Source: Ignavibacteria bacterium (lineage in GTDB: Bacteria > Bacteroidota > Ignavibacteria > Kapaibacteriales > UBA2268). From it: a DNA stretch of 64,000 nt. The position numbers and the translations under genes are program-made. Every line of letters begins with the position of its first letter. Positions within the stretch are counted from its first letter, which is position 1. The stretch is from positions 136,985 through 200,984 of the forward strand of contig JAOADV010000002.1 in NCBI GenBank assembly GCA_026417135.1, written 5' to 3'. The notes under the pieces are model-generated. The model ran no database searches, was not told the DNA's origin, and saw only the letters and a list, made by a program, of their open reading frames with translations. Shown here piece by piece: positions 22,801 to 26,833 of this stretch.

Positions 22801-23883
22801 ATGCGTAGGAAAATGATTAGAAGTGGTTATAGTTTTTCAATCCTGCTTTTCGAGATTCTTTTTGTGTTTTCCCTTGTTCTTTTTTACAGTTGCGAAAAGC
22901 CGGCGGCCACTTCCAATCTTTCAGAAGAGAAAGATTTCTCCGTACCACCAAAGGGTTTCCCACCTATACCTTTCCCAAAAGAAAATCCTTATTCAAGGGC
23001 AAAATTTGAACTTGGGCGCCGATTGTTTTACGAGAAACTTTTGGTTCGCGATAGTTCTTTCAAATCTTGTTCACATTGTTTAAAGCAAGAATACAACTTC
23101 GACAACAATATTCCAAATACTCTTGGATATAACAGGATTGCTGAATTTCGCACAACTATGACCTTGACTAATGTTGCTTACTATCCGCGACTTTTTTGGG
23201 ATGGTCGCTTAGAAGGAGCACAGATTGAGCGTGTAGCCTATAGAAGTATGTTCTTACCATATATATTTGGGAACGACACCAATGTGATTAATTCAAGACT
23301 TACAAACCATCCAATATATCCCAAATTATTTCGAGAGACTTTTGGAGAAAATGCCAAACCTTCGGCTTGGTTAGCTGCACAAGCAATAGCAACATTCGTG
23401 CGATGTTTAGTAAGTGGAAATTCAGCTTACGACAGATATATTCGCGGCGATTCCAATGCTTTGACAGCATCTCAAAAAAGGGGTATGGTTCTCTTTTTTA
23501 GTGAACGAACTAATTGCTCGGTGTGTCATTCAGGATTTCTGTTCTCTGACTTTAAATTTCATAATACTGGAAACACTTTACATTACTTCGATTTAGGCAG
23601 ATTTTACGTTACTGGTCGTTACGAAGATAGATATAAATTTATGACGCCTTCCTTAAGAAATGTTGAAGTTTCCGCTCCTTATATGCATCACGGAATGTTT
23701 AAAACATTAGAAGAAGTTTTGGAAAGTTACAATCGTGGCGGCTTCCCTTCCATAAATAAAGATAGTATTGTTAAACCATTGAATTTAAACGAACAAGAAA
23801 AGCAAGACTTAATAAATTTTCTAAAGTCTTTAACAGATTGGAATTTCTTAAGAAATCCAGACTTTTCTGAACCAAAGTGGTAA
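22801..23883 (+). CDS. Di-heme cytochrome c peroxidase family lipoprotein lacking the first heme histidine
   Basis: A 360-residue member of the bacterial cytochrome c peroxidase/MauG family. A lipoprotein signal ends at 'LVLFYSC', so it is membrane anchored. The second heme motif is intact (CSVCH, residues 239-243). At the first heme position the sequence is CSHCL (residues 90-94): both cysteines are kept but the axial histidine is leucine. 'FWDGR' and 'TPSLRNVEVSAPYMHHG' are typical of the family. The next gene is a close paralogue with both motifs. It may be a mono-heme electron carrier or have an altered active site; catalytic activity is doubtful. An alternative start is the ATG at 22813. 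Confidence 0.88.
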   Translation: MRRKMIRSGYSFSILLFEILFVFSLVLFYSCEKPAATSNLSEEKDFSVPPKGFPPIPFPKENPYSRAKFELGRRLFYEKLLVRDSSFKSCSHCLKQEYNFDNNIPNTLGYNRIAEFRTTMTLTNVAYYPRLFWDGRLEGAQIERVAYRSMFLPYIFGNDTNVINSRLTNHPIYPKLFRETFGENAKPSAWLAAQAIATFVRCLVSGNSAYDRYIRGDSNALTASQKRGMVLFFSERTNCSVCHSGFLFSDFKFHNTGNTLHYFDLGRFYVTGRYEDRYKFMTPSLRNVEVSAPYMHHGMFKTLEEVLESYNRGGFPSINKDSIVKPLNLNEQEKQDLINFLKSLTDWNFLRNPDFSEPKW

Positions 23884-24042: not shown

Positions 24043-25086
24043 ATGAATAAAACAGTTATATTAAAAATACTTTTGTTTTTTTTGATTCTCTTTCTTTTCA
24101 TTTGTTGCGAAAATTCAATAAAAGAGCCAAAGGATTACGAGTTCAATTATTCATCTCCTCCGCCAGGTTTCCCTCCAATTCCTTTTCCAGTTGATAACCC
24201 TTTCTCGAGTTCGAAGGAAAAGCTCGGACGATATCTGTTCTTCGAAAAAATACTTTCGCGAGATTCATCATTCAGCTGTGCAAGTTGTCATAATCCAAAA
24301 TATGCCTTTGCTGGAAATGTTCCAAATCCATTAACTATCAATAAATTTCCATTATTTAGAAATACTCTCTCTTTAGTTAATGTTGCTTATCGAAGGACAT
24401 TAGGATGGAGTGGGGAAGATATTACATTAGAGCATGCTATATATAATGATTTTTTCAGCCCACTTTTTTTCGATAACGATACAAATGTAATATTTCAAAG
24501 ACTGAGCAGTCATCCATTTTACCCGAAGATGTTCGAGGAAGCATTTGGAAAAGGAGTCAAACCTTATCCATACCTAGCTGCCAAAGCGATTGCAACATTT
24601 GTTCGAACACTCGTCTCTGGAAATTCTCAATACGATAAATATCTACGCGGCGACTCGAATGCTTTAACAACTAAGCAAAAGTTGGGGATGAGTCTATTTT
24701 TTAGCGAAAGAACAAAATGTTCGTTTTGTCACAGCGGCTTTTTATTTACTAATGAAAAATTCCACAATACCGGTACAACACCACACTATTTTGACTTTGG
24801 AAGGTACTACGTTACTGGAAAATTGGAAGACCGAAGTAAACTCAAGACTCCTTCGTTAAGAAATGTGGCTTTGACGGCTCCATACATTCACGATGGAACA
24901 ATGAGAACCCTTTGGGATGTAATTGAAAATTATAGCCGTGGAGGTTTTCCTTTTTTCAATAAGGATACAATAATTAAACCTTTAAACTTGACATACGAAG
25001 AAAAGGAAGCTCTTGTCGAATTTCTTAAAGCATTAACAGATATGGAATTTATCAACTCTCCACGCTTTAAAAGTTTTGGCTATTGA
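24043..25086 (+). CDS. Di-heme cytochrome c peroxidase family lipoprotein
   Basis: A 347-residue peroxidase/MauG-family protein with a lipoprotein signal ending at 'FLFICC'. Both c-type heme motifs are complete: CASCH (79-83) and CSFCH (226-230). 'FHNTGTTPHYFDFGRYYVTGKLEDR' and 'TPSLRNVALTAPYIHDG' follow. Family members reduce hydrogen peroxide with electrons from small carriers or, in MauG-like cases, oxidise protein side chains. The start is the ATG at 24043; a TTG five codons upstream is in frame. It closely resembles the preceding gene over its full length, showing a tandem duplication. Confidence 0.9.
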   Translation: MNKTVILKILLFFLILFLFICCENSIKEPKDYEFNYSSPPPGFPPIPFPVDNPFSSSKEKLGRYLFFEKILSRDSSFSCASCHNPKYAFAGNVPNPLTINKFPLFRNTLSLVNVAYRRTLGWSGEDITLEHAIYNDFFSPLFFDNDTNVIFQRLSSHPFYPKMFEEAFGKGVKPYPYLAAKAIATFVRTLVSGNSQYDKYLRGDSNALTTKQKLGMSLFFSERTKCSFCHSGFLFTNEKFHNTGTTPHYFDFGRYYVTGKLEDRSKLKTPSLRNVALTAPYIHDGTMRTLWDVIENYSRGGFPFFNKDTIIKPLNLTYEEKEALVEFLKALTDMEFINSPRFKSFGY

Positions 25087-25140: not shown

Positions 25141-25908
25141 ATGATAGATAGGAGAGATATATTAAAGCTCCTCTTTACCGCTATTGTAACGACACCATTT
25201 TTTCCTCATAAAATTCTTGGGAAAATTACACCAGACCTTAAACAAAAGGGTGACTCTTTGTTGGGAATATATGGAATAAGTTTAATAGACTATCCCGATT
25301 TGCAAAAAATTTGGGGCTCTGTTCGTATTAAAATTCAAGGAACTCTAATGTTTTATCCTAAAGTAATTATTGTTCGAGTACCAAAGGAAGAATATAATGT
25401 GGAGTTTATTGCAATTTCTGAACGATGTCCCCACGAAGGTTTCATCGTAAAAGATTTCGACCCCGAGTTGAAAATATTTGAATGTCCTGGCCACGGGACT
25501 CTGTTCGACGTTACTGGAAAATATGTTTGGGGGCCAGCAGCCCGCGACCTCGAGAGAATACAGGTCGAATACAATGGAACTGACACAATTTATCTTGAAA
25601 TTCCACTTTATCCACATAATGTCGAAGACCTAAATCCAAAAGAGAATTTGAACATAAATTTAATACGCGATATAGTCTCTCAAGAAAAACCTACTATCGA
25701 ATTTCAAATGACATTGGAAACTGTCTCGAATATAAAGATAAGCCTTTATGACTCTTTGGGCCGCTTAGTCTCTACATTATTCGAAGGAAATACCGATAGT
25801 AGATATTTTTCTTTCCCAGTCAGCTACTTAAAAGATGGAATATATTTCTTGAGATTATTCTTGAATAATCAACCAAAGATTACCAAAAAAATTATTATTG
25901 CAAGGTGA
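25141..25908 (+). CDS. Rieske [2Fe-2S] protein with a C-terminal T9SS sorting domain
   Basis: 255 residues in three parts. The N terminus has a twin-arginine-like signal ('DRRDILKLLFTAIVTT'), as expected for a cofactor-containing exported protein. The middle is a Rieske domain with both ligand boxes, Cys96-x-His98 ('RCPHEG') and Cys115-x2-His118 ('CPGHGTLFD'). From about residue 182 it is a T9SS type A sorting domain ('SLYDSLGRLVSTLF' and 'LKDGIYFLRLF' are the diagnostic strands), which normally directs a protein through the outer membrane to the cell surface. The protein is thus predicted to be a surface or secreted electron carrier. Its stop overlaps the next start by 4 bases. Confidence 0.88.
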   Translation: MIDRRDILKLLFTAIVTTPFFPHKILGKITPDLKQKGDSLLGIYGISLIDYPDLQKIWGSVRIKIQGTLMFYPKVIIVRVPKEEYNVEFIAISERCPHEGFIVKDFDPELKIFECPGHGTLFDVTGKYVWGPAARDLERIQVEYNGTDTIYLEIPLYPHNVEDLNPKENLNINLIRDIVSQEKPTIEFQMTLETVSNIKISLYDSLGRLVSTLFEGNTDSRYFSFPVSYLKDGIYFLRLFLNNQPKITKKIIIAR

Positions 25909-26444
25909 AGATTAAAATAACGCGTAGGTTGTTTTTAAAGGAACTATCTGATTTAATAAAGGGTGTCGGTGTTAGTGTAGTTATTTTACCTTTGATATCT
26001 TGTGAAAATGATTGGATAGTTCCACCAAAAATTTCAGGGAAGAGCATAGAATTAGATTTGACAAACGAAAGAAGCGATATTTTAAACTTGCCAGTGCTTA
26101 ATTTTCTTGGCGCTGGCTTGACAAAGCAATTTGAGGAAGTTAACTATGGTATTCCAGTTATTATTGTTCGTTTTAAGCGAGAAAATAAAGAGGATGATTT
26201 CCTATGTTTTTCAGGGATGTGTACTCACGACCAATGCTTTGGAAAGAATAAGGTTCGCGCTCCCTTAAAAATAGAAACTTTAAGTAATGGAGAAAAAGTT
26301 TGCCGTGTTATATGCACTTGTCACGGGTCTGAATTCGATTTACTTAGTGGTGGAAAAGTTCTAAAAGGACCTGCAGAAAAACCTTTACGAAAATTCGAAT
26401 GCTCTTTTAATCCTTCAAAAAACATATTAACGATTTACTACTGA
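25905..26444 (+). CDS. Rieske [2Fe-2S] lipoprotein with a Tat-type signal
   Basis: A 179-residue Rieske protein. It begins at a GTG that overlaps the stop of the previous gene (GTGA). The N terminus has a good twin-arginine motif ('TRRLFLKEL') followed by a hydrophobic stretch ending in 'LPLISC', a lipobox, so it should be a Tat-exported lipoprotein. The cluster ligands are Cys106-x-His108 ('MCTHDQC') and Cys137-x2-His140 ('CTCHGSEFD'); extra cysteines between them may form the disulfide usual in high-potential Rieske proteins. It resembles the stand-alone Rieske subunits of quinol oxidising complexes, but no cytochrome b gene is nearby. Confidence 0.88.
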   Translation: MKIKITRRLFLKELSDLIKGVGVSVVILPLISCENDWIVPPKISGKSIELDLTNERSDILNLPVLNFLGAGLTKQFEEVNYGIPVIIVRFKRENKEDDFLCFSGMCTHDQCFGKNKVRAPLKIETLSNGEKVCRVICTCHGSEFDLLSGGKVLKGPAEKPLRKFECSFNPSKNILTIYY

Positions 26445-26833
26445 TGAAAAAGGCTTGTGGTCTTGTTTTCATAGCAATTGCATTGCTAACAAGTTGTAAT
26501 GAAACCTCGATTCATAATCCCGAAGAAATAATTATTCCAGATTCTAATGTTAGTTTTCAAAATCACGTTTTACCGGTATTGCGTTACTCTTGTGGATTGT
26601 CGTATTGCCACGGAGAAATAGCACCTCAAGCAAACGTAATGATATACGATTATTATACTCTGATGTTTTCTTATGGAGGTGCTCTTGTGATACCAAGGCA
26701 ACCCGATGGAAGTGTTCTTGTGCAAATTATCGAATACAGATTGCCACATAAACCCACAATTGTTTGGAAAATTACCGAGAATCAAAGGAAGGGAATACGC
26801 CGCTGGATTTTAGAAGGTGCGTTTAATAATTAA
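26444..26833 (+). CDS. Small lipoprotein with a cytochrome-c-like heme motif
   Basis: 129 residues. The signal ends in 'ALLTSC' (lipobox). 'NHVLPVLRYSCGLSYCHGE' holds a Cys-x4-Cys-His motif, a longer spacing than the usual CxxCH. The rest ('VIPRQPDGSVLVQII' and 'ITENQRKGIRRWILEGAFNN') matches the small cytochrome c-like lipoproteins of Bacteroidota, where the terminal 'I..W..EGA..N' helix is typical. Whether heme is attached to the x4 motif is uncertain. The ATG shares one base with the stop of the preceding Rieske gene, so the three last genes of the operon are coupled. Confidence 0.72.
   Translation: MKKACGLVFIAIALLTSCNETSIHNPEEIIIPDSNVSFQNHVLPVLRYSCGLSYCHGEIAPQANVMIYDYYTLMFSYGGALVIPRQPDGSVLVQIIEYRLPHKPTIVWKITENQRKGIRRWILEGAFNN

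Follow-up and report, generated by a model that had tools for sequence, protein, structure and literature searches.

Proteins of the CCP_MauG superfamily carry two CxxCH motifs, and the described systems closest to the locus considered here are MbnH, MauG, and the bCcP-type peroxidases. MbnH of Methylosinus (6e1c; TIGR04039) has CxxCH at heme 1. MauG contains a His-ligated heme 1 with Gln103, Pro107, and Glu113, and the MauG-type heme 2 combines CxxCH with an axial Tyr (Tyr294). In NgBCCP, the peroxidatic heme is described as lined by Phe97, Gln108, Pro112, Glu118, and Met119; two of these residues, Glu118 and Gln108, take part in peroxide cleavage, and their single variants have been reported as inactive (PMC10094543). 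The counterpart trio given for BthA is Gln267/Pro271/Glu277 (PMC6405878). Natural departures from His at a CxxC heme, comparable to the one described below, occur in NrfA (CXXCK heme) and in hydrazine synthase, where Tyr591 is reported as the ligand of heme alpha-I and the motif His as binding zinc (PMC12607021). No mention of the present variant was found in the titles and abstract openings of the literature searched, most subscription papers being outside reach; a publication on MauG in Kapabacteria was not found in that literature either.

Gene Features and Family Placement

The analyzed window, a 64,000-nucleotide stretch of the genome of an Ignavibacteria bacterium, contains two tandem paralogues, here called P1 and P2, which are followed by two genes of Rieske proteins (Table 1). 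Residues 90–94 of P1 are encoded by TGT TCA CAT TGT TTA (Cys90-Ser-His-Cys93-Leu94), and the frame is intact. The initial annotation had read CSHCL at this place and CASCH in the paralogue about 1.2 kb downstream, and both readings proved correct. P1 has CSHCL at heme 1 and CSVCH at heme 2, the latter being its sole other CxxC motif; no further CxxCH was found in the N-terminal half of the protein. His243 and Tyr294, which together make up the MauG-type heme-2 site, were present in 12 of 12 P1-type sequences.

The CCP_MauG domain of P1 was recognized by Pfam with an E-value of 4e-30 (105.8 bits, cut-off 25.6), and P2 contains this domain as well. The best NCBIfam model for both paralogues was that of the MbnH family (TIGR04039), with scores under the family cut-off: 243.3 bits against 362.85 for P1, and 264 bits against 363 for P2. 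The nearest solved structure to P1 by sequence was MbnH 6e1c (E-value of 4.7e-40). The structural model of P1, made with a 48-row alignment, had a mean pLDDT of 94.0 and a pTM of 0.91, pLDDT being silent on heme occupancy. Its best structural match was again MbnH 6e1c (Z of 38.4, rmsd of 1.7, 313 residues aligned), followed by bCcPs and MauG (Z of 29.6 for MauG); the best 41 matches, with Z from 23 to 38, all belonged to the bCcP/MauG superfamily. According to the model, P1 has the MbnH/MauG/bCcP fold.

P1 resembles MbnH in fold, heme-2 CxxCH, and Tyr, but differs from it by CSHC[LMK] at heme 1, by the absence of the distal trio, and by its score under the family cut-off. With MauG it shares the fold, the heme-2 Tyr294-type position, and the inter-heme Trp, whereas the counterparts of the heme-1 His ligand and of Gln103, Pro107, and Glu113 are all lost. 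The two-domain fold, the CCP_MauG domain, and the inter-heme Trp are common to P1 and bCcP-type peroxidases; however, P1 lacks CxxCH at the peroxidatic heme as well as the catalytic Gln and Glu.

Table 1. Features of the P1 locus (positions in the window).
Feature	Position	Strand	Basis
P1: MbnH/MauG-family lipoprotein, 360 aa, altered heme-1 site	22801..23883	+	ORF, CCP_MauG Pfam domain, model
K88, one-residue insertion ahead of the heme-1 motif	23062..23064	+	found in P1-type proteins only
Altered heme-1 motif of P1, C90-S-H-C93-L94 (CxxCH in relatives)	23068..23082	+	codons and homologue alignment
W133, Trp between both heme domains (MauG/bCcP position), kept	23197..23199	+	Trp in 12/12 P1
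Former heme-1 distal pocket, positions 145/149/155 = V/S/I (Gln, Pro or Ala, Glu in relatives)	23233..23265	+	alignment
Intact heme-2 motif of P1, C239-S-V-C-H243	23515..23529	+	sequence and orthologues
Y294, heme-2 Tyr position of MauG type, kept	23680..23682	+	orthologue alignment
P2: paralogue downstream of P1, retains CASCH but not the distal Gln and Glu	24043..25086	+	ORF, alignment with P1, family alignment
Heme-1 motif of P2, CASCH	24277..24291	+	sequence
Rieske protein 1: leader containing RR, C-terminal type IX secretion tail, conserved neighbor	25141..25908	+	family searches, neighborhood
Rieske protein 2: RR-containing leader, lipobox-like Cys, conserved neighbor	25905..26444	+	family search, neighborhood
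Small lipoprotein-like protein with CX4CH motif (CGLSYCH)	26444..26833	+	linked to the cluster in its own genus only

Conservation of the Heme-1 Motif

An orthologue of P1 was present in 11 of 54 genomes of the family, distributed over six genera, and any homologue in 31 of the 54. The 11 genomes are those of uncultured Kapabacteria. The comparison set consisted of 100 sequences, three of which were dropped (one truncated at the motif and two distant ones having CxxCH). P1 of all 11 genomes carried SCSHC[LM], with Leu in five and Met in six; one genome (G015) has a second copy with CSHCK. Among these 12 P1-type sequences, position 94 was therefore Leu in five, Met in six, and Lys in one, and His was found there in all 85 other homologues compared. 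The residues S-C-S-H-C, including Ser91 and His92, were invariant in 12 of 12 P1; both cysteines are thus kept throughout, and the proximal His is lost. All 12 also had an extra residue just before the motif (Lys in five, Pro in five, Ala in two), which occurred in none of the 85 others. Leu and Met alternate at position 94 even within the window's genus, which suggests a hydrophobic residue in the protein interior and not a ligand. A conserved substitute ligand, as in the CXXCK-type heme, was not found at this position; NrfA and hydrazine synthase, for which such a ligand is known, are unrelated to P1, in which Leu and Met dominate.

Across 84,980 species, each represented by a single genome, a scan that used two seed peptides, one of them SCSHC[ML]KQ, found 57 related loci, and 10 of them had CSHC[LM]. 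These ten were labeled Kapabacteria, Kapaibacterium, Ignavibacteria bacterium, or Bacteroidetes/Chlorobi group. A genome scan with P1 alone gave no relative, whereas this one, run with the alignment, did. A search of 391 genomes sampled from the class at an E-value of 1e-118, a threshold that would miss fragmentary or more distant cases, matched 11 genomes: ten from the same family and one from a different family within the order.

The change of the motif is thus real and common to all close relatives checked. The initial annotation had asked whether CxxCL is conserved among orthologues, and CxxC[LM] was found in 11 of 11 genomes; the refuting outcome it named, CxxCH in all orthologues and a private mutant strain, did not occur. 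A sequencing or assembly error, or a mutation private to the strain, has next to no chance of explaining the motif; nothing was found in its favor, and it was rejected, since SCSHC is shared by 11 assemblies representing several isolates and sites. It is also very improbable that P1 is a decaying duplicate on its way to loss, in agreement with the earlier view that the gene is not decaying. The loss of the proximal ligand and of the catalytic trio would fit decay, as would the departures of the window's own P1 from its clade (a two-residue insertion after position 136 and Thr118). However, 11 of the 54 family genomes, from six genera, carry an intact gene with the same SCSHC, no frameshift or stop was found in the P1 frames (that of G037 is interrupted by a contig end), and P1 is the copy that persists in G018, where P2 is absent next door. 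Furthermore, protein identity was high against poorly matching four-fold sites: 92–97% for residues 86–125 in two genus pairs, with 4 of 12 and 6 of 13 four-fold sites matching, and 91–97% for residues 86–160 (G036 vs. G038 and G036 vs. G039), with matches from 1 of 7 to 6 of 13.

Distal Pocket of Heme 1

Pocket positions 132–133, 145, 149, and 155–156 of P1 were set by spacing and neighboring residues (F-W, Q, P four residues further, E-M six residues further) and were matched to F97-W98, Q108, P112, and E118-M119 of NgBCCP. In P1 (n = 12), position 145 was Pro in eight sequences, Val in two, Asn in one, and Asp in one; position 149 was Ser in 11 and Thr in one, and position 155 was Ile in all. 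In P2 (n = 6), the same positions were Ala in four and Met in two, Asp in all six, and Phe in four and Val in two, respectively. The 79 other homologues had Gln at position 145 in 74 cases, Pro (59), Ala (18), or Val (2) at position 149, and Glu at position 155 without exception. The distal Gln/Pro/Glu trio of active bacterial peroxidases and MauG was, accordingly, missing from 12 of 12 P1. The catalytic Glu is gone from both tandem paralogues, and the proximal His from P1 only.

With the distal trio lost from both proteins, H2O2 peroxidase activity is unlikely for either, and the label “peroxidase” given to P1 in the initial annotation is not supported. The alignment makes it likely that neither P1 nor P2 is an ordinary peroxidase, a conclusion firmer than either reading of heme 1 discussed below; P2 in particular, which kept CASCH but lost distal Gln and Glu in six of six copies, is probably not a peroxidase either. 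The heme-1 half is otherwise well kept: of 27 sites shared by 80% or more of the 79 other homologues, most P1 retained 21 and most P2 retained 20. The six such sites lost by P1 were H94, Q145, E155, and M156, named above around the iron, together with G115 and L142.

Paralogue P2 and the Histories of the Two Halves

P1 and P2 of the window had 59% identity over 295 aligned positions. In six intragenomic pairs, identity between the paralogues was 36–44% at residues 86–160 and 66–88% at residues 231–346. At residues 201–346, P1 and P2 of G036, a genome of the window's genus, had 80–96% protein identity in blocks, compared with 66–83% when P2 of G036 was set against its G038 orthologue. In the whole-protein tree, P2 of the window's genus was nested inside P1; the loss does not show there as one clean event within a P1 clade. 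In the tree of the heme-1 half (motif masked), the six P2 were grouped with support of 85/91, and neither a P1 clade (AU test, p = 0.214) nor a grouping of P1 and P2 of the window's genus (p = 0.266) was rejected. In the tree of the heme-2 half, P1 and P2 of this genus stood together at 100/100, and the AU test rejected the monophyly of P1 (p = 0.00104) as well as that of P2 (p = 0.00107). The conflicting trees of the two halves explain the nesting of P2 inside P1 at least partly. It seems that exchange between the paralogues (gene conversion) homogenizes the heme-2 half and leaves the heme-1 halves apart; alternatively, P2 may have regained CxxCH. In G003, a CxxCH copy was located upstream of P1.

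Neighboring Genes

P1 was followed by two Rieske genes, with or without P2 between them, in eight genomes (that of the window, G036, G038, G039, G003, G004, G005, and G018). Other genes adjoined P1 in G006 and at both copies of G015, and the contig ends in G037. In G022, a relative with CISCH also precedes Rieske 1. The Rieske cluster ligands were retained in all copies aligned. Rieske 1 of G004 and G005 (L068:4922-5731 and L069:2446-3255) has CVKGH in place of the CSGH, CTGH, or CPGH found elsewhere, with one additional residue between the ligands. No Pfam or NCBIfam match was obtained for the small CX4CH protein, the CGLSYCH motif of which was identical in four of four copies of the genus.

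MbnP is linked to MbnH as a partner. MbnP (PF20243) was found in six of the 54 family genomes, all of them without CSHC, and in none of the 11 CSHC genomes; it was rejected as a substrate of P1 in the latter.

Heme Maturation Machinery

The Ccm system of E. coli is reported to have failed on CXXCK, CXXCM, and CXXCR variants (PMC4158909, citing Allen 2005). Only two PF01578 proteins were encoded in 10 of the 11 CSHC genomes, and the third match in G006 was under the cut-off; a dedicated second lyase of the CcmF/NrfE type was not found in CSHC genomes by the PF01578 search of the 54 genomes. NrfA was present in eight of the 11 CSHC genomes, and no NrfA match was obtained in G039, G006, and G018, which have CSHC[LM]. 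The first NrfA motif was C[YW][AST]CK in the six genomes read. Since one CcmF apparently serves the CXXCK NrfA, this CcmF may be tolerant; a tolerant CcmF has been suggested for Shewanella (PMC12285233). The genome of the window itself contains NrfA (L164, G000:C61:93000-96000) with CYACK as the first motif, and one CcmF-sized PF01578 protein.

Interpretation of the Altered Heme-1 Site

The sequences show that P1 lost the proximal His and the distal trio, kept both cysteines, gained an invariant His between these, and has long been conserved. We interpret P1 as a conserved protein of the MbnH/MauG/bCcP superfamily without a peroxidatic function, whose heme-1 site would have been stripped of its iron-binding and its catalytic elements on both faces, with the fold and heme 2 remaining. 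Heme 1 would most likely no longer be covalently attached, the retained CxHC pair would serve as a thiol/disulfide or metal site, and P1 would possess one working c-type heme (His243/Tyr294). This reading, slightly favored over that of an unusual heme, has in our judgment an even chance of being right. With Leu or Met at position 94 and Ile at position 155, neither face offers an evident iron ligand; this favors the absence of heme 1. The invariance of His92 (12 of 12) fits a function, and the drift of position 94 among Leu, Met, and Lys argues against ligation from there. On the other hand, the kept cysteines, W133, and scaffold favor a heme, and more relaxation might be expected after the loss of heme 1, yet the heme-1 half of P1 is kept as in P2.

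It is quite possible, though the balance lies somewhat against it, that heme 1 is still covalently bound via Cys90 and Cys93 as a non-catalytic electron-transfer or tuning heme with unusual ligation: without a ligand from position 94, with His92, Met94, or Lys94, or with a residue of another domain. Such a heme would find no obvious ligand on either face where Leu94 (5 of 12) is combined with distal Ser/Thr149 and Ile155. In CxxC motifs, a His in the second X position normally faces away from the iron, which also counts against it. The invariant cysteines, W133, and a heme-1 half that is, for the rest, preserved to the same degree as in P2 speak for this heme, and so does the single CcmF of CSHC genomes, which seems to handle CXXCK NrfA, with the tolerance suggested for Shewanella (PMC12285233); CXXCM, however, is reported not to be matured by E. 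coli Ccm (PMC4158909). A precedent is described in hydrazine synthase heme alpha-I, where the CxxCH His does not ligate its own heme (PMC12607021). Much less probable is an oxidizing MauG/MbnH-like enzyme that would modify a partner by means of heme 2 or another oxidant. Heme-2 CxxCH and Tyr294 are kept in 12 of 12 P1, and WGS[VI]R of the adjoining Rieske 1 includes a Trp, invariant in 9 of 9 copies, which could be the modified residue; nevertheless, the peroxide-activating residues are lost from both paralogues, and the CSHC genomes have no MbnP.

For the preferred heme-1-less P1, the thiol-disulfide motifs CPHC of DsbA and CGHC of PDI offer a comparison, both having His ahead of the second Cys. 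The CxHC pattern, invariant in P1, is shared with them, but P1 has no thioredoxin fold, the likeness is confined to four residues, and a thiol-disulfide role is putative. A more specific scenario, tentative and rather doubtful, is that a di-heme lineage gave up its peroxidatic heme and acquired instead a redox-active CxHC site, thiol or metal, beside the remaining heme, the heme-2 half being kept in common through paralogue exchange with a neighbor that retained its heme-1 motif. From gene order, we infer a role of the Rieske neighbors in P1 function; P1, P2, and the two Rieske proteins would form a cell-envelope electron-transfer set and not an H2O2 peroxidase.

P1 is a natural example, stable in evolution, of a CxxCH motif that lost its His and kept both cysteines. 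It offers a way to test directly, outside E. coli, how strictly cytochrome c maturation depends on this His, and also what a di-heme scaffold can do without peroxide chemistry. In this lineage, gene annotations such as cytochrome c peroxidase or MauG call for caution, as the proteins are probably not peroxidases. The second copy of G015 (L073:9726-10802) places a CXXCK-type motif inside a MauG-family protein.
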